Shown here one piece after another: positions 9,030 to 41,686 of a stretch of 41,686 nucleotides of DNA. The position numbers and the translations under genes are program-made. The first letter of the stretch is position 1. Each line of letters begins with the position of its first letter. Location of the stretch: NCBI GenBank assembly GCA_011390315.1, contig JAABSQ010000565.1, positions 1-41,686 on the forward strand, given 5' to 3'. The stretch comes from Desulfobacteraceae bacterium. Lineage in GTDB: Bacteria > Desulfobacterota > Desulfobacteria > Desulfobacterales > Desulfococcaceae. The notes under the pieces were generated by a model. It saw only the letters and a list, made by a program, of their open reading frames with translations. It was not told where the DNA came from and did no database searches.

Positions 9030-9998
9030 TTGGAAACAGCCGTGGTTTCTTATTCCAAACTGAACAAAGCGGCCAGGGGCTGGCTCGACACCCACATGGG
9101 AGACCATATCCGATGGAATGAACCCATGGCCCGGCACACCTCCTTTCGAGTGGGCGGGCCGGCCGAGGCGTTTTTCACGCCGCCCTCGGCGGCTCATCTG
9201 GCCGATTTCGTTCAGTGGGCCGGAAAAGCCGGAATCCCGTATCGAATCATCGGAGACGGCACCAACCTGCTGGCTCCGGACCGCGGGATCGCGGGGGTGG
9301 TGATCAACCTGAGACATTTCCGGAAGATCGAGTATGCGGCGGAGGATGCGGCTTCGGCTACTGTAACGCTTCGTGCCCTGGCCGGGGTTCGGCTGAAGGT
9401 ATTCTGCCAGTTTGCCGCGCGAAACGGGCTGGAGGGGATGGCTTTTGCCCTGGGCATCCCCGGCACCGTCGGCGGCGGCATGATGATGAATGCCGGGACT
9501 CAGGACGGTTCCATGGCCGATGTGCTGGTCTCCGCAACCGTGATGGATGCGGCGGGCGCGGTTCGTGAGATTGCCCGAGAAGATTTCCGATTCGGTTATC
9601 GATCCTTTTCCTGGGAGTCTTCCGCTGCCGGGGAAAAGGCGATTCTGCTCGCCGGCGCCTTTCAGCTGCAAAAGGGGGGGCGGGATGCCCGAATGCTGAG
9701 AAAGGAAGCCCGGGATCGGCTCTGCGACCGAAGGCGAAAGCAGCCGATCGGACTGCCCAGCGGCGGCTGTTTTTTTCGGAATCCGCCCGAGGGGCCGGGG
9801 GCCGGCGCTTTGATCGATCGGGCCGGTCTGAAGGGAATGCGGATCGGGGGTGCGGAAGTCTCGGCCAAGCACGCCAACTTTATCGTCAACCGGGAAAGCG
9901 CCACCAGTTCGGATATTCTGGCCCTGGCTGCGGCGGTGCGGGATACGGTTCGCCGAAAATTCGGGGTTGACCTGAAACCGGAAATCTGTATTATTTGA
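9030..9998 (+). CDS. murB: UDP-N-acetylenolpyruvoylglucosamine reductase MurB (TTG start uncertain)
   Basis: NEPMARHTSFRVGGPAE, GDGTNLLAPD, GIPGTVGGGMMMNAG, FGYRSFSWE, PSGGCFFRNP. Confidence 0.94.
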   Translation: METAVVSYSKLNKAARGWLDTHMGDHIRWNEPMARHTSFRVGGPAEAFFTPPSAAHLADFVQWAGKAGIPYRIIGDGTNLLAPDRGIAGVVINLRHFRKIEYAAEDAASATVTLRALAGVRLKVFCQFAARNGLEGMAFALGIPGTVGGGMMMNAGTQDGSMADVLVSATVMDAAGAVREIAREDFRFGYRSFSWESSAAGEKAILLAGAFQLQKGGRDARMLRKEARDRLCDRRRKQPIGLPSGGCFFRNPPEGPGAGALIDRAGLKGMRIGGAEVSAKHANFIVNRESATSSDILALAAAVRDTVRRKFGVDLKPEICII

Positions 9999-10033
9999 TA
10001 TATTCTCTAAATTAGGAGACCGGGGGCGCTATA

Positions 10034-10972
10034 TTGCAACAGAAAGAAAACAGACAGATACTGCACATCCTGATCTGGACCGCGGGGATGAGCGTGGGGC
10101 TGGTTTTTCTGTTTCTGTTTCTGATCCAGTGGGATTACCTGCGAGCGGAACGGGTGGTGGTGTCCGGGGCCGTGCGGCTTTCCGAACCCATGGTTATAGA
10201 AAAGGCCGGTCTGAGGCCGGGCGTAAACATCTTTTCCGTGAACCTGTCCAAGGCTCGCAAGCGGCTGCTTTCCCATCCCTGGATTGCCGAGGCGACGGTG
10301 GGGATCGGGTTTCCGCCGGAAATCCGGATTCGAATTAAGGAGCAGGAAGCGCTGGCCGTTTTTGAACTGGATCAAAAATACCTGGCCAATGGGGACGGCA
10401 GGATTTTTAAGGAATGGGATCCGCTCGAAACCCGAATGCTGCCGGTGGTCAGCGGCCTGCGGTATTCCGATGTGGATATCGCGGGGAAACCCGAAGGGAT
10501 GATTCGGGAAGGGCTTCAGCGGGCCGGCGCCTATCTGGAAGAGATGACGCGGAAGCTGTTGACCGAATGGAACATCCGGCGATCCTTCGAAACGGAAACC
10601 GAGCCCGAGTCCGCGGTTCTTTCCGATTCGGAGACGCTGCCTTTTAAAGCGGTGATGAATGTGCTACAATCCGGCATTGCACCGGACAGCATTCTACCCA
10701 ATCGGCTGATCCAGGATATCCGGGTGGACCGGGATATGGGGATTACCCTCATTCTGACCCCTGAAAATGAGGCGGTCGGGGTCGGCCGGATTCGACTGGG
10801 CTATCATAACTACCCTGTAAAATATTTACATCTACAGCAGTTGTTTCGCCATCTGAATCGCGAGGAGCATCATCTGAAAATCGACTCCATAGATCTGAAC
10901 AACCTGGATCGTATCGTCGTCAGCCCCATGCATACCGATTCGCTCGCCAGGGATTACAAGGAGGATATCTGA
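10034..10972 (+). CDS. ftsQ: Cell-division protein FtsQ (POTRA domain)
   Basis: N-terminal TM, POTRA-like region (RAERVVVSGAVRLSEPMVIEKAGLRPGVNIFSVNLSKARKRLLSHPWI), position before ftsA. Confidence 0.88.
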   Translation: MQQKENRQILHILIWTAGMSVGLVFLFLFLIQWDYLRAERVVVSGAVRLSEPMVIEKAGLRPGVNIFSVNLSKARKRLLSHPWIAEATVGIGFPPEIRIRIKEQEALAVFELDQKYLANGDGRIFKEWDPLETRMLPVVSGLRYSDVDIAGKPEGMIREGLQRAGAYLEEMTRKLLTEWNIRRSFETETEPESAVLSDSETLPFKAVMNVLQSGIAPDSILPNRLIQDIRVDRDMGITLILTPENEAVGVGRIRLGYHNYPVKYLHLQQLFRHLNREEHHLKIDSIDLNNLDRIVVSPMHTDSLARDYKEDI

Positions 10973-10973
10973 G

Positions 10974-12203
10974 GTGCAGGGACAGGGAGAGTTAATCGTC
11001 GGTCTGGATATCGGCACCACCAAGATCTGCGCGGTGGTGGGCGAGGTATCCGGCAACGACATCAATATCATCGGAATAGGGTCGCATCCCTCCATCGGGC
11101 TCCGCAAAGGGGTGGTGGTCAATATCGAATCCACGGTTCAGTCGATCAAAAAAGCGGTGGAAGACGCCGAACTCATGGCCGGGTGCGACATCACCTCGGT
11201 CTATGCCGGAATCGCCGGCGGGCACATCACGGGGTTCAACAGCCGGGGGATCATCGCCATCAAGGGCTCGGGCGAAATCACGCCGCTGGATGTGGACCGG
11301 GTGGTGGATGCGGCCCGGGCGGTGGCCATCCCGATGGACCGGGAGGTCATCCATGTGCTGCCCCAGGAATTCATCGTCGACGACCAGACCGGCATTCTCA
11401 ATCCGGTGGGCATGTCGGCGGTTCGGCTGGAAGCCAAGATCCATATCGTCACCGGCGCCGTCACCTCCGCCCACAACATCATCAAATGCGCCAATAAAGC
11501 CGGTCTGGATGTCAACGACATCGTCCTCGAATCCCTGGCCTCCAGCGAAGCGGTCCTGACCGACGATGAAAAGGAGCTGGGGACTGCGCTGCTGGATCTG
11601 GGCGGCGGCACCACCGATCTGGCCATTTTCGCAGGGAAAAACATCAAGCATACTTTTGTTCTGGCCCTGGGCGGAAACAACCTCACCAACGATATCGCCA
11701 TCGGACTGCGCGCTCCTTTGGCCGAAGCGGAGAAGATCAAGAAGAAATACGGGACCTGCCTTCCCGGAAACATCAGCGGGGAGGACGTCATCGAGGTTCC
11801 GGGCATGGGTGGGCGAAAACCCCGCAAGCTTTCCCGTCAGATACTGTCCGAAATTCTGGAACCGCGAATGGAAGAAATATTTTCGCTCGTGAATCGTGAG
11901 ATCTACCGGGCCGGAATGGAAAACACCATCAATTCCGGATTGGTGTTGACCGGCGGGTCTTCTCTTCTGGACGGCGTGACCGATGTCGCGGAATCGATAT
12001 TCGATCTGCCCGCCCGACTGGGCCGGCCGGGCAATATCGGCGGTCTGGTGGATGTGGTCAACAATCCCATGTACGCCACCGGCGTGGGGTTGGTCCTGTT
12101 CGGTGCGCAAAACCGCAATTCGGCCAAGTTCAAGGTCCGGGACAACAACATCTTCAACCGCCTGGTGACCCGGATGAAACGATGGTTTCAGGATATTATT
12201 TGA
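10974..12203 (+). CDS. ftsA: Cell-division protein FtsA
   Basis: Actin-fold ATPase; VGLDIGTTKICAVVGE, LGTALLDLGGGTTDLAIF, GLVLTGGSSLLDG; GTG start. Confidence 0.96.
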   Translation: MQGQGELIVGLDIGTTKICAVVGEVSGNDINIIGIGSHPSIGLRKGVVVNIESTVQSIKKAVEDAELMAGCDITSVYAGIAGGHITGFNSRGIIAIKGSGEITPLDVDRVVDAARAVAIPMDREVIHVLPQEFIVDDQTGILNPVGMSAVRLEAKIHIVTGAVTSAHNIIKCANKAGLDVNDIVLESLASSEAVLTDDEKELGTALLDLGGGTTDLAIFAGKNIKHTFVLALGGNNLTNDIAIGLRAPLAEAEKIKKKYGTCLPGNISGEDVIEVPGMGGRKPRKLSRQILSEILEPRMEEIFSLVNREIYRAGMENTINSGLVLTGGSSLLDGVTDVAESIFDLPARLGRPGNIGGLVDVVNNPMYATGVGLVLFGAQNRNSAKFKVRDNNIFNRLVTRMKRWFQDII

Positions 12204-19158: not shown

Positions 19159-19590
19159 TTGGGGGAGATGAGTTCAAACAAAGAATTGAAACTGGCTTAT
19201 GGTATAGCGGTTGTTTTGCTGGTCATGGGGATGCTGAGCTATACCGCCCTTTCGGGCGAAGCTCCCGAGGAACCCCTGCGGATCATGTACCGGGGCGCGG
19301 CTGGGGGCGTTCTTTTTAATCATCAGATCCACTCGTATGATTACGGGTTTTCCTGCACCGATTGTCACCACCATCCCGAGGCTGCCGAAGAGATGCTTTC
19401 CTGCAACGCCTGCCACATCTTTCCCGAGGGAGGAGAACTGCCGGTAGCCTGCCTGGAATGCCACGGCGCCGATGAAGTCGACCTGACCGGAGTTCCCAAC
19501 AAGACCGATGCCTTTCATTCCCAGTGCATCGGTTGCCATGAGGACAGCGGAGCCGGTCCCGTCGAGTGCGCCACATGCCACATCCTGTAA
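19159..19590 (+). CDS. Multiheme c-type cytochrome (class III cytochrome c-like) preceding rnf
   Basis: N-terminal signal/anchor helix and five CxxCH motifs: CTDCH, CNACH, CLECH, CIGCH, CATCH. Confidence 0.9.
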   Translation: MGEMSSNKELKLAYGIAVVLLVMGMLSYTALSGEAPEEPLRIMYRGAAGGVLFNHQIHSYDYGFSCTDCHHHPEAAEEMLSCNACHIFPEGGELPVACLECHGADEVDLTGVPNKTDAFHSQCIGCHEDSGAGPVECATCHIL

Positions 19591-19663: not shown

Positions 19664-21043
19664 ATGATGAAAAGATCGTTTTTTGGACTGCAACAGCCTC
19701 GGTTTAAATACGACGCGGTCAGCAATGTGAATATCGAGCCCGTGCGGATTGCGGTTCCGGAGAAAGTGACCCTCTTCCTGAATCGACCGTTCGAGGGGAA
19801 AACGCCACGAACACTCAACGTGGGCGACCGGGTCAAGACCGGCCAGAAGATAACCCTCTATGAAGACAGCGACGCCTATGTGATTTCGTCGGTGACCGGC
19901 GTCATTCGCTCCTTCGATTCCTTCCTCGGTGATTACGGCCAGGCCCTGACCGCCATCAACATCGAGCCGGAACAGACCGATGAATTCGATGAAGCCCTGC
20001 GGAAGGCTTTGGAGGAAGACGGAATCGCCGCCGCGCGGGATTACCTTCTCTCCATCCCCGGGGGGATGCCGCCGGAGATGCTCAAAGGCGGGCACGTAGA
20101 CACCCTGGTGATTTGCGGAATCGAACAGGACCTTCTCTCGATCACCAATCAGTTCGTGACCAAATCCAAGGTATCCGCTATGAACAAGGGCGTCAGCGCC
20201 ATCAAAAAGATCACCGGGGTGCACAAGGTGGTGATGGCCCTGCCCCAGAGCCTCATCCAGGAAGCCGGCGCCATCGGCGGGGCTTCGGGCGTGGAGCTTC
20301 GGGTGATCGAGGACGAGTATCCGTCGGCCAACCCCAGGCTCATCATGCGGGACGTGATGGGTCAGGTCGTGCCGGCCGACAAAAGGCCCGAAGAGCTCGG
20401 CATCTTTTTTGTTAATGCCGAGGCGATTGCCGCCGTGGGCGAGGCGGTGGAAAAAAAGATACTGCCGGTGACCAAGACCCTGACAGTGATCAAAAAGGAT
20501 ATGACAAAGACGGTGGTGGAGGCCCGAATCGGCACCCCGTTCTCCGATATTTTCCAGGCCCTCGACATTACCCTCTTCGATCGAGACCGAATCATCGTGG
20601 GCGGCCCCATGAGCGGAACCACGGTCTACGCCGAAGACCATCCGGTGGACCCCCGCACCTTGTCCATCATGATTCAAGACAGTTCGGATGTGCCGCTGGT
20701 ATCCGATTACCCCTGCATCAATTGCGGCGAATGCGTTCGCATCTGCCCCGCCGATGTTCCGGTCAACATGCTGGTTCGGTTTCTGGAGGCGAGACAATAC
20801 GAGACCGCCGCGGATGAATATGATCTGCATTCCTGCATCGAATGCGGGCTCTGCAGCTTTGTCTGCCCGTCGAAAATTCCCGTTTTTCAGTACATTCGAC
20901 TGGGCAAATATGAACTGGACCGGATTCGTCTGGAAGAGGAAGCCGAGGCCCCGGAGACTTTAGAAGAACCGGCCCCCGAGACCGAGGAAACGACTGAGGA
21001 AGAGACAAAGACAGCGGCAGCGGCCAAGGAAGAGGAGGCGTAG
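19664..21043 (+). CDS. rnfC: RnfC-like subunit, divergent, with two 4Fe-4S motifs and acidic C-terminal tail
   Basis: N-terminal RnfC/NqrA-like region, CINCGECVRICP and CIECGLCSFVCP; located before rnfD. Canonical GLGGAxFP and NGxECEP motifs absent. Confidence 0.88.
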   Translation: MMKRSFFGLQQPRFKYDAVSNVNIEPVRIAVPEKVTLFLNRPFEGKTPRTLNVGDRVKTGQKITLYEDSDAYVISSVTGVIRSFDSFLGDYGQALTAINIEPEQTDEFDEALRKALEEDGIAAARDYLLSIPGGMPPEMLKGGHVDTLVICGIEQDLLSITNQFVTKSKVSAMNKGVSAIKKITGVHKVVMALPQSLIQEAGAIGGASGVELRVIEDEYPSANPRLIMRDVMGQVVPADKRPEELGIFFVNAEAIAAVGEAVEKKILPVTKTLTVIKKDMTKTVVEARIGTPFSDIFQALDITLFDRDRIIVGGPMSGTTVYAEDHPVDPRTLSIMIQDSSDVPLVSDYPCINCGECVRICPADVPVNMLVRFLEARQYETAADEYDLHSCIECGLCSFVCPSKIPVFQYIRLGKYELDRIRLEEEAEAPETLEEPAPETEETTEEETKTAAAAKEEEA

Positions 21044-21044
21044 A

Positions 21045-22028
21045 ATGTACAACAGGAAAAAATTCATTGTTTCACATGCGCCGTTCTGGCATGACGGCAG
21101 TTGGATTGCCCAGCGAAGCTATAACATTCTGCTGGCCGCGTTGCCGGCGGTGATCCTCAGCATCTACTACTACGGCCTGCCCGCCTTGGGAGTGGTGGCC
21201 CTGTCGGTCTCGTCGGCCATGCTGTGGGAACTTGGATTTACCCGGGTTTCCAAGACCGCCGATACCATCGGAGACGGCAGTGCGGCCGTCATCGGAATGA
21301 TGTTCGCCATGCTGTTGCCGCCGGTGGCGCCTTGGTGGCTGATCGTGGCGGGGACTTTCCTGGCGGTCGTGATCGGCAAAATGATCTACGGCGGGATCGG
21401 CGGCAATCCTTTCAACCCCGCGGTTCTTGCCTACGCTATTATCGGGGTGTCCTGGTGGGATTACCTCAATTTCGACGCCGCCATCGTAAATTACGATCTT
21501 GGCTTCATTACCATGTTTCCGCTGGCCCTGGCCAAACATGCCGGCATGCACACCGACCTGTTCAACGTCCAGCAAATCATCTCTTCTTATAACCTGACCG
21601 ACCTGTTGATGGGGCGGCAGGTGGGCGGCATCGGCGCCACCTTCGGCTTGGGGCTTTTGCTCGGCGGGATCTACCTGATCATCAGGGGCATTATCCGGTG
21701 GGAGATCTCGATCTCCTTTCTGGCGGGGGTGGGTTTTACCGCTCTGCTGTTCCAGGCCGCCGATCCCGGCCGGTATGCGGGTCCCCTGTTTCATCTGTTG
21801 ACCGGGTATACCCTGCTGGGCGCTTTCTTTCTCGCAACCGAGGACTCCTCTTCGCCGGTCAACTTCCTTCCCATGCTGATCTACGGCGCGGCCGCCGGCA
21901 TATTGACGGTCCTGATCCGTAATATCGGCGCCTATCCCGAAGGGGTCATCTTCGCTATTCTGGTGGTCAATCTCATCAACCCGCTGTTGGATAAAATCAG
22001 ACCCAAAGCATTAGGAAAGGTTACGTAA
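21045..22028 (+). CDS. rnfD: RnfD subunit
   Basis: Multi-TM; GNPFNPAVLAYA, GGIYLIIRGIIRWEI, LLGAFFLATEDSSSPVN, RNIGAYPEGVIFAILVVNLINPLLD. Confidence 0.93.
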   Translation: MYNRKKFIVSHAPFWHDGSWIAQRSYNILLAALPAVILSIYYYGLPALGVVALSVSSAMLWELGFTRVSKTADTIGDGSAAVIGMMFAMLLPPVAPWWLIVAGTFLAVVIGKMIYGGIGGNPFNPAVLAYAIIGVSWWDYLNFDAAIVNYDLGFITMFPLALAKHAGMHTDLFNVQQIISSYNLTDLLMGRQVGGIGATFGLGLLLGGIYLIIRGIIRWEISISFLAGVGFTALLFQAADPGRYAGPLFHLLTGYTLLGAFFLATEDSSSPVNFLPMLIYGAAAGILTVLIRNIGAYPEGVIFAILVVNLINPLLDKIRPKALGKVT

Positions 22029-22029
22029 A

Positions 22030-22623
22030 ATGGGCGACATGATAAAAATGGTTGTGGTGTTGACGGTGTTGAGCGCATTTTCGGGCGGACTGCTGGCCGC
22101 TATACGAGACAACACCAAAGAGCAGATCGAGGTGCAGCAGTTGACATTCGTCAAGGGGCCGGCCATTCGGGAAATTTTTAAAGATGCCGGCAATGATCCC
22201 ATTTCCGATCGATTCAAGCTTCAGTACGGTGACGAGGAACGCAGCTTTTTCGTGGGCGTCTACGACGGCAACCCCAAGGGGGTGGCCCTGGAGACTTACG
22301 GCAAGGGATACGGCGGAGATGTCGGCCTGATGGTCGGCATCGACACGGAGACCGACAAGATCATCGGCGTGAGCGTGACTACCCATGCGGAAACCCCCGG
22401 CCTCGGCGCCCGGGCCAAGGAAGATCCCGAGTTCTCCGGTCAGTTTGAAGGTCTTTCGCTGACGGACACCATTGCGGTGACCAAAGACGGGGGACAGGTC
22501 AATTCCATCAGCGGCGCCACCATCACCTCTCGGGCGGTGGCCAACGCGGCCCAGAAGGCATCGGATATCTACAAGCGGCTCAAGCCCGAAATCATCGAAA
22601 ATGCGAAAAGCATCGCCAAATAA
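22030..22623 (+). CDS. rnfG: RnfG subunit (covalent FMN motif present)
   Basis: N-terminal TM, THAETPGLGARAKE, SGATITSRAV. Confidence 0.94.
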   Translation: MGDMIKMVVVLTVLSAFSGGLLAAIRDNTKEQIEVQQLTFVKGPAIREIFKDAGNDPISDRFKLQYGDEERSFFVGVYDGNPKGVALETYGKGYGGDVGLMVGIDTETDKIIGVSVTTHAETPGLGARAKEDPEFSGQFEGLSLTDTIAVTKDGGQVNSISGATITSRAVANAAQKASDIYKRLKPEIIENAKSIAK

Positions 22624-22634
22624 GGGGGATACAC

Positions 22635-23228
22635 ATGGCTAAAACGCTTGTTCAGGAATTTACAAAAGGTCTCTGGAACGAAATTCCGCCCTTCCGCCTG
22701 GTGCTCGGGCTATGCCCCACGTTGGCGGTGACCAAATCGGTGGAAAGCGGCATCGGCATGGGGCTGGCCACCACCTTCGTTCTGGTCTGCTCCAATGTTT
22801 TGGTATCATTGTTGAGAAACGTCATTCCGCCCAAGGTTCGAATCGCTTGTTTCATTATCGTCATCGCCACTTTCGTGACGGTGGTAGAGCTGGTCATGCA
22901 GGCGTACGCCTATCCGCTGTTTCTGACCCTGGGTATCTTCATTCCGCTGATCGTGGTGAACTGTATTGTTCTGGGGCGGTCCGAGGCGTTCGCATCCAAG
23001 AACAATCTGATCCGCTCCACTGCGGACGGTCTCGGAATCGGCACCGGGTTCACCCTCTCCCTGGGCGCTCTGGGCGGTGTGCGGGAGCTGCTCGGGTACG
23101 GCACACTGCTGGGCAAAGACATCATGCCCGCTTCCTTTGAGCCGTTCTCTTTTGCCATCGAGGCCCCCGGCGCCTTTATCTGCCTCGGTCTCATGCTCTG
23201 CATCATGAATCTCATCGGAAGTAAATAG
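22635..23228 (+). CDS. rnfE: RnfE subunit
   Basis: Multi-TM; LGLCPTLAVTKSVESGIGMG, IPLIVVNCIVLGRSEAFASKN, GALGGVRELLGYG. Confidence 0.95.
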   Translation: MAKTLVQEFTKGLWNEIPPFRLVLGLCPTLAVTKSVESGIGMGLATTFVLVCSNVLVSLLRNVIPPKVRIACFIIVIATFVTVVELVMQAYAYPLFLTLGIFIPLIVVNCIVLGRSEAFASKNNLIRSTADGLGIGTGFTLSLGALGGVRELLGYGTLLGKDIMPASFEPFSFAIEAPGAFICLGLMLCIMNLIGSK

Positions 23229-23236
23229 GAGGAAAC

Positions 23237-23812
23237 ATGGGCGACTATATCGTTCTTGCCATCAGCTGCATCCTGATCAACAATATTCTTCTGGCCCAGT
23301 ACCTGGGGCAGTGCCCGTTTATGGGAACTTCTAAAAAAATGGAGACGGCCGTGGGGATGGCCATGGCGGTCATCTTTGTTCTGGTCATGGCCGGATTGAT
23401 CACATGGATGGTCAATACCTATATCCTGGTGACCTTCGGGCTCGAGTACCTGCGGACCATCGCTTTTATCCTGGTAATCGCCTCTCTGGTCCAGTTTGTT
23501 GAAATGTTCCTGAAAAAATCGATTCCGGCGCTGTATGCCGGGCTGGGTATTTTTCTTCCCCTGATCACCACCAACTGTGCGGTGATGGGGGCCTGCCTGA
23601 TTAACATTAATGAAGAATACACCTTCATGCAGGCCCTGGTAGCCTCCTTCAGCTACGCGGTGGGATTCGGACTGGCCCTGATTCTGTTTGCAGGCGTACG
23701 GGAACGGATTATTCTTGGGCGGGTTCCGAAACCCCTTCAGGATACTTCCATCGCTCTGGTGACGGCCGGCGTTCTGTCGCTGACCTTCTTCGCCTTCAGG
23801 GGAATGGTCTAA
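23237..23812 (+). CDS. rnfA: RnfA subunit
   Basis: Multi-TM; NNILLAQYLGQCPFMGTSKK, FLPLITTNCAVMGACLIN, FAGVRERI. Confidence 0.95.
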   Translation: MGDYIVLAISCILINNILLAQYLGQCPFMGTSKKMETAVGMAMAVIFVLVMAGLITWMVNTYILVTFGLEYLRTIAFILVIASLVQFVEMFLKKSIPALYAGLGIFLPLITTNCAVMGACLININEEYTFMQALVASFSYAVGFGLALILFAGVRERIILGRVPKPLQDTSIALVTAGVLSLTFFAFRGMV

Positions 23813-23857
23813 AAAACATTAAAAAATTCCAATGATTTATTGTCTTAGAAAAGTGGA

Positions 23858-23887
23858 ACAACCCGAATCGGGTTGTCCCTTTTTTTT
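23858..23887 (+). terminator. Intrinsic terminator or attenuator between rnfA and rnfB
   Basis: ACAACCCGA-a-TCGGGTTGT perfect 9-bp stem followed by CCCTTTTTTTT. Confidence 0.85.
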
Positions 23888-23916
23888 CACTCTTACCGTT
23901 TCTAGGAGGTAATAAC

Positions 23917-25998
23917 GTGACAGAAGCCATCCTGATTATGTTGGGTATCGGCGCGGTCTGCGGATCGGTGCTGAGTATTGCTTCTAAGATATTTTATGTA
24001 TGGGAGGACCCCCGCATCGCGGAGGTCGAGCGAAACCTGGCCGGCGCCAACTGCGGCGGTTGCGGCTTTGCCGGGTGCGCTTCGGCGGCGGTCGCGGTGG
24101 TGGAGGGGAAAGCCCCTCCGACGGTCTGCGTCATCGCCGGGCCGGAATCCTCGGCCGGTGTTGCCGAAGTGATGGGAATGGACCCGGGTACCGCCGAACC
24201 CTTGAGGTCTCTAAATACCTGCGACGGCGGTATTCGCGCCACCGATAAATACCATTATATGGGGGTCCAGACCTGCGCGGCCCTGACCGCTCTTTACGGC
24301 GGAAAGAGAGACTGCATGGTCGGATGCCTGGGCATGGGCGACTGCATCCGTTCCTGTAATTTCGACGCCATCCATATGGGGCCGGACAACTTCCCCATTG
24401 TGGACGAGGCCAAATGCGTGGGATGCGGCGCCTGTGAAAAGGCCTGTCCAAAATCGATTCTGACGGTGAAGACCATGTCCGAGCGGCTGCTTCATCTTAA
24501 TGAATTCGACGATGCCTTGGCGCCTTGCCAGCAGACCTGCCCGGCGGAAATCGATATTCCGACCTATATCAACTGTGTGGCCACCGGCGATTATGAAGGT
24601 GCGGTGAATGCCATTCGTGAACGGAACCCGCTGCTGCTGACCTGTGGCCGTGTCTGCCCGCATCCCTGTGAGGATTACTGCCGACGCGGCATCGAGGACG
24701 AACCGGTTTCCATCAATCAGCTCAAGCGGTTTGCCGCCGATTACGAAATGAACTCCGGCAAGCGGCTGCCTATTCCCTGCGCCCCGGCCACCGGCAAAAA
24801 GGTGGCGGTGATCGGCGGAGGGCCGGCCGGGCTGAGCGCCGCCTATTTTCTGCGGCGGGTGGGCCATAATGTCACCATTTTTGAGGCCATGCCCAAGATG
24901 GGCGGGATGATCCGCTACGGCATCCCTGAATACCGCCTTCCCAAAAAGGTGCTCGACTGGGAAATCCAGGGCATTCTGGATCTCGGCATCGAAGCCCGAA
25001 CCGGGGTCCGCTTCGGTCGGGAATTCGATATGCAGACCCTCAATAACGAAGGGTTCGATGCGGTATTTATGGGCATCGGGGCCTGGAGCGATTACACCCT
25101 CGGTGTGGAAGGGGAGGATATGAAAGGGTGCTTTACCGGCATCAACTTTCTTTCCCGAATCGCCGGCGGAGAAAAGATCCCCATCGGGAAGAAGGCGGTG
25201 GTAGTCGGCGGCGGAAACACCGCCATCGACTGTGTGCGAACCCTGGTCCGGCTGGGAGCCGAAGAGGTCACTATCCTCTATCGACGGACCCGAGCGGAGA
25301 TGCCGGCCAACGAGGTGGAGATCGTGGCCGCGGAGCACGAAGGGGTCAACTTCCAGTTCCTGGCAGCCCCCACCCGGGTGGTGGGCGAGGAGGGTCGCGC
25401 CGCCCACATCGAATACCTGAAGATGGAGCTCGGCGAACCGGATGCCTCCGGCCGGCGTCGACCGGTGCCGGTGGAAGGCTCCGAGACCCTGCTGGAAGCG
25501 GATATGATCATCAGCGCCATCGGTCAGCGACCGGACGTCTCTTTCAAGCTGAAGGACAAATCCCTGGAGGGGCTCGAGATCACCCGGTGGAACACCATCG
25601 ACAATGAACCGATTACGCTTCAGACCAGCATGCCCAGAATCTTTACCGGCGGCGATTCGGCCACCGGGGCTTCTCTGGTGGTGGAAGCCATCGGAGGCGG
25701 CAGGCGGGCGGCCCGATCCATTCACCAGTACCTGATGGGCGAAAAGATACAACCTCCCGAAAAAGTGCTGTTTAAGGAGCATATTCCGACCTCTCTGTTC
25801 GAACGGGTGGAGGGCATCATTAAGTCGCCTCGGGCGGAAATGCCTGAATTGCCGGTTAAGGAGAGAATCAAAACATTCGAAGAGGCTGATTTGGTGCTCC
25901 CTGAGTCTGCGGCTTTGGAGGAAGCCAGTCGTTGTCTCAACTGCTGTCGGCTTTGCTACAATCCGGATCTTGTCAAATCGACCCAGAAGGCTGCCTAA
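23917..25998 (+). CDS. rnfB: RnfB fused to GltD/NfnB-like FAD-NAD(P)H oxidoreductase module
   Basis: GTG start with AGGAGG RBS. RnfB Fe-S domain NCGGCGFAGC plus CLGMGDCIRSC and CVGCGACEKACP; then GltD N-terminal Fe-S domain (PCQQTCPAEIDIPTYI, CGRVCPHPCEDYCRR), FAD GGGPAGLSAAYFL, NAD(P) GGGNTAIDCVRTLVRLGAEEVTILYRRTRAEMPA, GGDSATGASLVVEAIGGGRRAA. Confidence 0.93.
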   Translation: MTEAILIMLGIGAVCGSVLSIASKIFYVWEDPRIAEVERNLAGANCGGCGFAGCASAAVAVVEGKAPPTVCVIAGPESSAGVAEVMGMDPGTAEPLRSLNTCDGGIRATDKYHYMGVQTCAALTALYGGKRDCMVGCLGMGDCIRSCNFDAIHMGPDNFPIVDEAKCVGCGACEKACPKSILTVKTMSERLLHLNEFDDALAPCQQTCPAEIDIPTYINCVATGDYEGAVNAIRERNPLLLTCGRVCPHPCEDYCRRGIEDEPVSINQLKRFAADYEMNSGKRLPIPCAPATGKKVAVIGGGPAGLSAAYFLRRVGHNVTIFEAMPKMGGMIRYGIPEYRLPKKVLDWEIQGILDLGIEARTGVRFGREFDMQTLNNEGFDAVFMGIGAWSDYTLGVEGEDMKGCFTGINFLSRIAGGEKIPIGKKAVVVGGGNTAIDCVRTLVRLGAEEVTILYRRTRAEMPANEVEIVAAEHEGVNFQFLAAPTRVVGEEGRAAHIEYLKMELGEPDASGRRRPVPVEGSETLLEADMIISAIGQRPDVSFKLKDKSLEGLEITRWNTIDNEPITLQTSMPRIFTGGDSATGASLVVEAIGGGRRAARSIHQYLMGEKIQPPEKVLFKEHIPTSLFERVEGIIKSPRAEMPELPVKERIKTFEEADLVLPESAALEEASRCLNCCRLCYNPDLVKSTQKAA

Positions 25999-28384: not shown

Positions 28385-30427
28385 TTATACCAGGAAGGGC
28401 ACCATCAGAAGGGCCACCACGTTGAGGATCTTGATCATCGGGTTTACTGCGGGGCCGGCGGTATCCTTGTACGGATCGCCTACGGTGTCGCCGGTAACAG
28501 CGGCTTTGTGGGCATCGCTGCCCTTGCCGCCGAGATGACCGTCTTCGATGTACTTTTTGGCGTTGTCCCATGCGGCGCCGCCGGTAGTCATGGACAGGGC
28601 CACGAAAACACCGGTGATGATACTTCCGATGAGCAGACCGCCCAAGGCTACTTTGCCGAGGAAAAGTCCGACCAGAACCGGAGCGACGACCGGCAGCAGA
28701 GCCGGAACCAGCATTTCTTTGAGTGCGAACTTGGTGACGATGTCAACGCATGCACCGTAATCAGGCTTCCCGGTACCTTCCATGATTCCGGGGATTTCGC
28801 GGAATTGTCTGCGAACTTCGTCCACAACTGCGCCGCCTGCAGCCCCGACGGCATTCATGGCGATGGAGGCGAACAGGTAAGGCAAAAGACCGCCGATGAA
28901 CAGACCGATAATCACATTCACATCACCCAGGTCGAAGCGGATGCCTTCACTCCCGCCATGGAATGTGAATTCTTGCACATAGCAGGCAAACAGAACCAGG
29001 GCGGCCAGTGCGGCAGAGCCGATGGCGTAACCCTTCGTGACCGCTTTGGTGGTATTTCCGACCGCATCCAGGGGATCGGTTACGGCGCGGACGCTTTCAT
29101 CCATTTCAGCCATTTCGGCGATGCCGCCGGCATTGTCGGTGATGGGGCCGTAAGCATCGATGGCGATGACCATACCGGTCATGGACAGCATGGAGATGGC
29201 CGCGATGGCGATTCCGTAAAGACCGGCCATGTTATGGGCCACGTAGATACCCAGGCAGATGGCCAGAACCGGTGCCGCGGTGGCCTGCATGCTGACGCCG
29301 AGACCGGCAATGATGTTGGTGCCGTGACCGGTCGTAGAGGCTTCGGCGACCGCCTTCACCGGACCGTAGATGCCGGTGTAGTATTCGGTGATGATCACGA
29401 TGACCACGGTGAGAACCAGGCCGACCAGCGCTGAATAGTAAAGCGCCATTACGCTGATCTCGCCGCCCAGACCGTCTTGGCCGAGAACCAGGTTGGTGAC
29501 ATAGTAGAAGGCGATGGCGGCCAGAATGGCGGAACCGAACATGCCTTTGTAGAGAGCGCCCATGATATATTCGCTTTTCCCCAGTCGAACGAAGAAGATC
29601 GCGATCATGGAGCAGACGATTGATACGGCGCCCAGAATCAGGGGATACTCGGTGGCGATGGGGATTTTGGGGAAGAGCAGATTGCCGATGAGCATCGCCG
29701 CAACGGCAGTTACCGCATAGGTTTCGAACAGGTCCGCGGCCATACCGGCGCAGTCGCCCACGTTGTCGCCCACGTTGTCGGCGATAACAGCCGGGTTTCT
29801 CGGGTCATCCTCGGGAATACCGGCCTCGACTTTACCCACCAGGTCGGCGCCCACATCCGCGCCTTTGGTGAAGATGCCGCCGCCCAACCGGGCAAAAATC
29901 GAGATGAGGCTTCCACCGAATCCGAGGGCCACCAGTGCGATGACCGCTTCCCGCGGTTCAACGCCGGTTTTCAGCAGAGCGGTATAGTAGCCGGCCACAG
30001 AGGTCAAGGCCAGACCTGCGACCATCATACCGGTCACGGCGCCGCCCTTGAAAGCCAGGCTCAGGCCTTTGGCCAGACCGCCCTTGGCCGCCTCTGCCGT
30101 CCGAACGTTGGCGATAACGGAAACCCGCATCCCCACATAGCCGGCGATAAACGACGCCGTGGCGCCGATGAGAAAACCGACCGCGGTTTTGGCCCCGAGG
30201 GTGGCGAAAATAATGATAAAAATAATGCCGCCGGCAACAGACATCGATTTCAGCTGACGGTTCAGATAAGCGATGGCGCCTTCCTTGATCGCATCCGCAA
30301 TTTCGGTCATCTTCTTGTCGCCCGCCGGGGCGCCCTTGACTACCCCCGCAAGAATGATAGCAAAGAGAACTCCCACTACACCTACCAGAGTACAAATCAA
30401 CGGCAGATTGTTCAATACAGTTTCCAT
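28385..30427 (-). CDS. hppA: Membrane-bound proton-translocating pyrophosphatase, K+-independent type
   Basis: ~16-[80 protein letters not shown] with K at the K+-dependence position. Confidence 0.96.
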
Positions 30428-40283: not shown

Positions 40284-40365
40284 TCCCTCTGCTGATTTTT
40301 ATAAAATGCTTGAACAGGCCGCGCCGACCGGCGCCGGCTTTCCGAGGAAATTTCAAGGAGAACTT

Positions 40366-41686
40366 ATGGCACTTTTTTTCAAAGGCTCGGCAAGCGGCGG
40401 CACTTTCCCCCGCGGGGTCCATCCGCCCGAATGGAAGACCTATTCCGAGGACGCGGCCATCGAGGTGGTTCCGCCGCCGCAGAAGGTCATGCTGCCTCTG
40501 CTTCAGAATGTCGGCGCACCCAGCAAGCCGATCGTCAAGCCCAAGACCATGGTCGCCTTCGGGGAAAAGGTCGCCGACGGGGGCGCATTCGTGTCCGCGC
40601 CGCTTCATGCCCCCATCGCCGGCAAGGTGTTGAAGACCGGGGTCACCACCCTGGCCAACGGCCGGCACGTCAGCGCCATTCCCATCAAGGCGGACGGGGA
40701 GCAGCTTTCCGGGCAAGCCCTCTATGATGAAATCCTGGGGGGAGAATGGCCCAAGGAGGGTTTTGAAAAATACGATATCCAGGAGATCGTCGACGCCATT
40801 CAGGGGGCCGGTATCGTGGGGCTCGGCGGAGCCGCTTTTCCCACCCATGTGAAGTATGTTCCCAATGAGAAGAAGCCGATCCATACGGTCCTGATCAACG
40901 GATGCGAATGCGAGCCTTATCTCACCTCCGATTACCGCCTTATGCTGGAGGCCCCTGAAGCCATCGTCAGCGGCGCACTGATCGCCGGCCGGGTCACCGG
41001 GGCCAAGGAGATCTTCATCGGCATCGAAGACAATAAACCCAAGGCGGTCGAAGCCCTGCGGAAGGCGGCGGCCGGCGCCTCCATTCAGGTGGCCGTACTC
41101 AAGACCAAATACCCCCAGGGCAGCGAAAAACAGCTGATCCTGGCCCTGACCGGCAAAGAGGTGCCGATGGGCGGTCTGCCCCTGGATGTGGGCATCGCGG
41201 TGAGCAACGTGGGCACCGCCGCAGCCATGGCCCGGGCCGTGCTTCGGGGAAAGCCCCTGACCCATCGGGTGGTGACGGTGACCGGCGGCGGCATCAAAAC
41301 CCCCAAGAACCTGCTGGCCCCGATCGGGATTCCTCTGGGGGAACTGATCGATTTCTGCGGCGGACTCACCGATGACGCGGCCCGAATGATCTCCGGCGGT
41401 CCCATGATGGGCTTTTCCTTTACCGACCTCGATTCTCCGGTCACCAAGGGAACCAGCGGGGTTACCATTCTCACGGCGGCGGAGGTCAAAAAGGCCGAGG
41501 AGACCACCTGTGTCCGATGCGGCCGATGCGTGGACGTCTGCCCCATGAACCTGGTGCCTACCAAGCTGGCCTTGGCCTCCCGGCATAAGGATATCGAGTT
41601 GGCCAAACGATACAACATCATGGCCTGTTTCGAGTGCGGCTCCTGTGCGTATATCTGTCCGGCCTCCATCCCGCTGGTTCAGCTGG
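40366..41686 (+). CDS. rnfC: RnfC, canonical, runs off the window end
   Basis: ATG 40366 after AAGGAG: MALFFKGSASGGTFPRGVHPPEWK..., GIVGLGGAAFPTHVK, LINGCECEPYLTSD, CVRCGRCVDVCPMNL, CFECGSCAYICPASIPLVQL. Absent from the ORF track because it has no stop in the window. Confidence 0.95.
   Translation, partial: MALFFKGSASGGTFPRGVHPPEWKTYSEDAAIEVVPPPQKVMLPLLQNVGAPSKPIVKPKTMVAFGEKVADGGAFVSAPLHAPIAGKVLKTGVTTLANGRHVSAIPIKADGEQLSGQALYDEILGGEWPKEGFEKYDIQEIVDAIQGAGIVGLGGAAFPTHVKYVPNEKKPIHTVLINGCECEPYLTSDYRLMLEAPEAIVSGALIAGRVTGAKEIFIGIEDNKPKAVEALRKAAAGASIQVAVLKTKYPQGSEKQLILALTGKEVPMGGLPLDVGIAVSNVGTAAAMARAVLRGKPLTHRVVTVTGGGIKTPKNLLAPIGIPLGELIDFCGGLTDDAARMISGGPMMGFSFTDLDSPVTKGTSGVTILTAAEVKKAEETTCVRCGRCVDVCPMNLVPTKLALASRHKDIELAKRYNIMACFECGSCAYICPASIPLVQL

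Follow-up and report, generated by a model that had tools for sequence, protein, structure and literature searches.

Predicted loss of two flavin sites accompanies an RnfB-GltD fusion in a Tol2-type (Rnf2) operon of a Desulfobacteraceae bacterium

Desulfobacteraceae are known to encode an unusual Rnf complex. The published sections on the Tol2-type Rnf describe an RnfB of ~700 aa with NAD-binding sites and an RnfC that lacks the NADH domains (PMC5109826). In the relevant part of a later account this complex is named Rnf2, assigned to the Desulfobacteraceae core genome and described as constitutively formed (PMC11887813). The former source, in its section on Desulfococcus multivorans, places Rnf1 and Rnf2 ~20 kb apart and states that the mode of action of Rnf2 awaits verification (PMC5109826). 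The RnfB-GltD architecture is thus already published (PMC5109826, PMC11887813) and is not new here. In the canonical complex of C. tetanomorphum, RnfD carries FMN covalently bound to Thr153 (PMC9588780). The Rnf of M. acetivorans is reported to work without NAD(P), and its RnfG is the proposed donor to cytochrome c (PMC4023990). StnC, which resembles the GltD part of the fusion, is reported to bind NADPH and to have a non-bifurcating FAD, and StnC-type modules serve as input modules attached to various partners (PMC10482914).

We analyzed a stretch of 41,686 nucleotides (the window; contig JAABSQ010000565.1 of assembly GCA_011390315.1). Positions 23917-25998 of the forward strand form a single open frame of 693 codons (693 aa) with no internal stop, a GTG start and AGGAGGT upstream. 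Pfam domains, all above cut-off, are FeS (PF04060, residues 41-72), Fer4 (160-180), Fer4_20 (202-280) and Pyr_redox_2 (294-594); NCBIfam places RnfB models over residues 3-257 and NAD(P)-binding/GltD models over 189-681. The two databases agree with the initial annotation, which had read an RnfB Fe-S domain, 4Fe-4S clusters, a GltD-type Fe-S domain and both Rossmann folds in one uninterrupted frame. The RnfB half contains the FeS domain and two more 4Fe-4S motifs, and by homology it would be the ferredoxin-accepting subunit, as annotated; RCLNCCRLC at the C-terminus is part of the GltD module. Of 57 related genomes, ~40 (counted from the listed matches) encode a full-length homologue at 55-82% identity, and the cluster cysteines of both halves are conserved in 55-57 of 57 fusions. 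The fusion is therefore confirmed as real, neither a chance frame nor a frameshift artefact, and its recurrence excludes a hidden stop or frameshift between the RnfB and GltD parts. One partial fusion is known from the Calditrichaceae (L050). In-frame TGA codons in relatives were considered as selenocysteine; nearly all are a true stop just before the query end, the single internal one (L017, residue 75) is isolated, and this reading was dropped.

The fusion gene is the last in the order cytc-rnfC-D-G-E-A-[rnfB-gltD] (Table 1), and fusion operons of the order with flanking sequence available have the same arrangement, a few being only partly visible at contig ends. A terminator-like hairpin with T8 in the gap between rnfA and the fusion gene (23813-23916) is not conserved in relatives and was discarded. 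Downstream, an ORF on the reverse strand (28385-30427) resembles, as far as can be recognized from its sequence, a membrane-bound pyrophosphatase (HppA).

Table 1. Features of the Rnf2-type operon and of the second RnfC in the window
Feature	Coordinates	Strand	Characteristics
Pentaheme c-type cytochrome, first gene	19159..19590	+	small, membrane-anchored, 143 aa; 5 CxxCH
RnfC, Rnf2 type	19664..21043	+	two 4Fe-4S motifs conserved (residues 351, 391)
Position of lost FMN/NADH loop in RnfC (residues 127-138)	20042..20077	+	loop present in the window's second RnfC (40819-40854)
RnfD	21045..22028	+	covalent-FMN Thr replaced by Phe158 (codon 21516-21518; alignment to 7zc6_D)
RnfG	22030..22623	+	SGAT motif, FMN-binding Thr164 conserved; NF045876 260.8 bits (cut-off 205)
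RnfE	22635..23228	+	TIGR01948; membrane Cys ligands of the RnfA/E iron centre conserved
RnfA	23237..23812	+	TIGR01943; membrane Cys ligands conserved
RnfB half of fusion (residues 1-198)	23917..24510	+	membrane helix; FeS domain C46/49/54/71; ferredoxin domain C133/137/143/147, C167/170/173/177
GltD/StnC-like half of fusion (residues 199-693)	24511..25998	+	Fer4_20 Cys 204/208, 243-255; Lys270; FAD fold from 294; Arg340; NAD(P) fold GGGNTA; Arg456/457; C-terminal RCLNCCRLC 672-680
Canonical RnfC (Rnf1 type)	40306..41685	+	GLGGAAFPTHVK loop; cut by contig end; TIGR01945 502 bits

The operon encodes all six Rnf subunits (RnfABCDGE), including the RnfG FMN threonine and the RnfA/E cysteines, and both flavin sites that mark a canonical Rnf, the covalent FMN threonine of RnfD and the FMN/NADH loop of RnfC, are absent from it. 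In an alignment to solved RnfC, YLLSIPGGMPPE stands in place of the loop GxGGAxFPTxxK. This RnfC scores 195.8 bits against TIGR01945, below the cut-off of 245.95, and has no Pfam match to an SLBB domain; a weak match to Complex1_51K (36.8 bits, cut-off 31.2) remains, and we therefore consider the fold retained. The canonical RnfC ~14 kb downstream of the fusion serves as an internal control for the loop loss. The locus has the features of the Tol2 type: a ~700 aa RnfB with an NAD(P) module, and an RnfC with neither an NADH/FMN site nor SLBB.

Our survey covered 101 operon loci, including a few duplicates. Among 52 loci with a fusion, 46 lack both flavin sites, three lack the loop and are ambiguous at the threonine, and three lack the threonine and have RnfC outside the available sequence. 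In the 40 loci where RnfB is encoded by a gene of its own, both sites are present 29 times and both absent 10 times, and one locus (L201) lacks the loop only; at the remaining nine loci RnfB is not in the sequence stretch. The RnfC loop is thus absent from 49/49 evaluable fusion operons (38/38 in a first set) and present in 29/40 operons with a separate RnfB. The RnfD threonine is missing from 49/52 fusion operons, where the residue is Tyr in most relatives; three fusion operons (L185, L190, L192) have a threonine near the site, which counts against the explanation proposed below. A simple pattern matched the RnfG motif in 36 of 40 fusion-operon RnfG sequences, the RnfA/E cysteines are conserved in all, and every Rnf2 operon examined retains RnfC with its two 4Fe-4S motifs. 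L201 is a separate, partial case: its full-size RnfC (9497-11023) lacks the FMN/NADH loop, the RnfD threonine is present and RnfB is short. A literature search with partial journal coverage found no relevant report on loss of the RnfD FMN in sulfate reducers, and the loss of the RnfC loop and RnfD threonine in fusion operons, with the RnfG FMN threonine and RnfA/E cysteines kept, appears to be new.

A tree of RnfD, RnfG, RnfE and RnfA from 97 operons, to be read with caution given a quick method and long branches, places 65 flavin-depleted operons, with all fusions among them, in one branch (SH-aLRT 100). In some operons of this branch RnfB is encoded separately, among them the decaheme type L174, our stand-in for Desulfovibrio (decaheme cytochrome and a match to RnfG_DVU2794 of 280 bits), and some relatives of the complex have an RnfB of 266-308 aa without the GltD module. 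The RnfC and RnfD losses amount to about one event, so their association with the fusion is anatomical and does not represent many independent tests.

The explanation we prefer, to which we give an even chance, is that the fusion is the RnfB of a Tol2-type (Rnf2) complex with a flavin-poor electron route, its C-terminal half being an StnC/NfnABC-type NADP(H):FeS module that does not bifurcate. On the best reading of the sequences, the NAD(P) site would have moved from RnfC to RnfB. A hydride would pass between NADPH and the FAD of the GltD half, and single electrons would pass from the 4Fe-4S clusters of that half to the ferredoxin clusters of RnfB, which would still meet ferredoxin too. Electrons would then cross through the RnfA/E iron centre, the putative ion-coupled step, to the FMN of RnfG on the periplasmic side and on to the c-type cytochrome of the operon, or the whole route may run in reverse. 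Departure at RnfG is proposed in view of the missing flavin sites of RnfD and RnfC. RnfC may be mainly a scaffold that still holds 4Fe-4S clusters, by analogy with NqrA, which serves Nqr as a scaffold devoid of cofactors. We put electron exit to cytochrome c at somewhat below an even chance, and give about the same chance to the complete scheme of an NADPH:cytochrome c ion pump, in which NADPH and ferredoxin feed RnfB and electrons run through RnfA/E and RnfG to periplasmic cytochrome c with RnfD and RnfC free of flavins. Against this scheme, RnfD could bind FMN non-covalently, and the two retained 4Fe-4S motifs suggest that RnfC may still carry electrons.

Immediately upstream of rnfC, ~50 of ~65 flavin-depleted operons (48 by script, plus L107 and L174, which are in the same list) and 0/30 canonical operons have a heme gene, in favor of a cytochrome exit. 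The M. acetivorans Rnf offers a biochemical precedent for a complex that is linked to a cytochrome and does not use NAD(P) (PMC4023990), and in D. alaskensis, whose Rnf is cytochrome-linked, ferredoxin:NAD+ vesicle experiments were unsuccessful (PMC4841214). Several observations argue against a cytochrome exit. Two fusion-bearing subclades (L181/L186/L189 and L184/L185/L190/L192) have no nearby heme gene. The rnf2 cytochrome of D. multivorans was detected in lactate cells only (PMC5109826), and the fitness of D. alaskensis dhcA mutants was unaffected with ethanol, formate or H2 (PMC4841214).

Alternatively, Rnf2 may still be a ferredoxin:NAD(P)+ oxidoreductase that is closed on the cytoplasmic side, with electrons running from RnfB through RnfA/E, RnfG and RnfD to RnfC by way of non-covalent RnfD flavins and passed by the RnfC clusters to a soluble partner, and with the GltD half as a second outlet that balances NADPH. 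Retention of RnfC and its cluster motifs throughout the Rnf2 operons examined is consistent with this, as are the fusions without a heme gene and the assignment of Rnf2 to NAD/ferredoxin/NADP linkage in the pertinent part of PMC11887813. The loss of FMN-binding residues from both RnfC and RnfD and the tight linkage of the cytochrome in most members argue against it, and we regard it as unlikely, though deserving of real weight.

Our preferred explanation also depends on the kind of GltD module present. The best solved matches of the GltD half are large subunits of NfnABC/StnABC (464, 447 and 419 bits), above NfnL of T. maritima and P. furiosus (318 and 314 bits). These large subunits also rank first in a fold search with the predicted structure, for which the Rossmann part alone was used (mean pLDDT of the fusion 62.8 from a shallow alignment, with the RnfB half poorly modelled). 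Counted along alignments, Lys270 corresponds to K170 of StnC, where NfnL has Glu, and Arg340 corresponds to R239 of StnC and R201 of NfnB. This proximal-cluster ligand position is Lys in 56/57 fusions. The RCxxC motif starts NfnL and ends the fusion protein; StnC has this circular permutation too. The initial annotation's assignment of NADPH-type residues holds, with YRR present and the two nucleotide-site arginines conserved in 53-54 of 57 fusions. The fusion therefore has the whole StnC-type set (Lys ligand, R239 equivalent, C-terminal RCxxC and NADPH arginines) and none of the NfnB/NfnL features (Glu ligand, N-terminal RCxxC and an NfnA partner in the operon). The operon encodes neither the NuoG-like domain nor the HydBC-like partners of StnABC/NfnABC. 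Elsewhere, the genome encodes a separate, true NfnAB with the Glu ligand and N-terminal RCxxC. We conclude that the GltD half is very probably an NADP(H) module. It is also probably non-bifurcating, since its ligands are of the StnC type, StnC is reported not to bifurcate and the genome has a true NfnAB.

The initial annotation had proposed a bifurcation-like module on RnfB. In such a module the FAD of the GltD half would split NADPH electrons as in Nfn, sending one through the RnfB clusters to ferredoxin and the other into the Rnf membrane chain. The good alignment of the fold to both NfnL proteins and an R201-equivalent arginine in 57/57 fusions could be taken to favor this, but StnC has the same arginine and is reported as non-bifurcating (PMC10482914). 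The Lys ligand, the C-terminal RCxxC, the better NfnABC/StnC matches, the lack of an NfnA/[2Fe-2S] partner in the operon and the true NfnAB elsewhere all speak against bifurcation, so that this part of the annotation is not supported and we now consider it quite improbable. Least probable of all is a GltD half that works as a plain ferredoxin/RnfB:NADP+ reductase, tethered for convenience with no part in the pump, as the use of StnC-type modules on different partners (PMC10482914) and the short RnfB of some relatives might allow, because wherever a fusion lies in an rnf operon whose RnfC is available, that RnfC has lost its nucleotide site, which suggests replacement rather than decoration.

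Other associations of Rnf with GltD-like proteins were found. The same genome encodes a paralogous RnfB-GltD fusion of 698 aa (39% identity; C151, L002/L149) in a cluster NuoE-NuoF/HydB-like-[RnfB-GltD]-RseC (L149 4007-9549) that is conserved in many relatives and may form a membrane-tethered StnABC-like or NuoEF complex. Thirteen of 15 paralogues of this type have Glu/Asp in place of the second nucleotide arginine (Arg457), a substitution that hints at NAD(H) use or a dead site. In genome G090, genes for NfnA and NfnB follow rnfA in the place of rnfB (L173, 7972-10436), and the fusion is on another contig. Seven loci (L194, L197-L199, L202, L206, L207) have operons in rnfABCDGE order with a separate GltD-like gene near rnfE.

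If the preferred explanation is true, a major group of marine sulfate reducers uses an ion pump to connect NADPH and ferredoxin with the pool of periplasmic cytochromes, and an Rnf would work without the RnfD and RnfC flavins, which bears on the location of the ion-coupling step. The residue-level losses lead to specific tests, on the subunits that bear flavin, the nucleotide used and a possible exit of electrons to the periplasm.

Of the systems to which Rnf2 can be compared, Na+-NQR is an analogy, in that an FeS subunit anchored in the membrane bears the NAD(P)H site and the RnfC/NqrA subunit has no flavin; it differs in that NqrF is unrelated to RnfB-GltD and NqrB retains FMN and hands electrons to quinone. 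The M. acetivorans Rnf (PMC4023990) parallels Rnf2 in its co-encoded multiheme cytochrome c and in RnfG as donor, but it is archaeal, has no reported GltD module on RnfB and is likened here by description, not by sequence. NfnAB (NfnL/NfnS) shares the GltD fold and the FAD/NADPH folds, and differs in its Glu ligand, N-terminal RCxxC and NfnA partner, all missing from the fusion. StnC of Sporomusa ovata and the NfnABC large subunits (8oh5, 9bov, 9n5u) have a GltD-like domain with the Lys ligand, C-terminal RCxxC and NADPH arginines of the fusion, but there the domain is joined to NuoG-like domains, with HydBC/StnAB as partner subunits, and here to RnfB. The closest system is the Tol2-type Rnf2 of Desulfobacula toluolica Tol2 and Desulfococcus multivorans. 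As described in the sections of PMC5109826 and PMC11887813 that deal with it, it has the ~700 aa RnfB with extra NAD-binding sites, an RnfC said to lack the NADH-oxidoreductase and soluble-ligand domains, a small cytochrome encoded in the gene cluster, and Rnf1 and Rnf2 ~20 kb apart, all as in the window. Against those sections the window shows no difference in kind, and what we add to the account they give is that RnfD has lost its threonine and that the GltD half has ligands of the StnC type, together with a survey across the clade.
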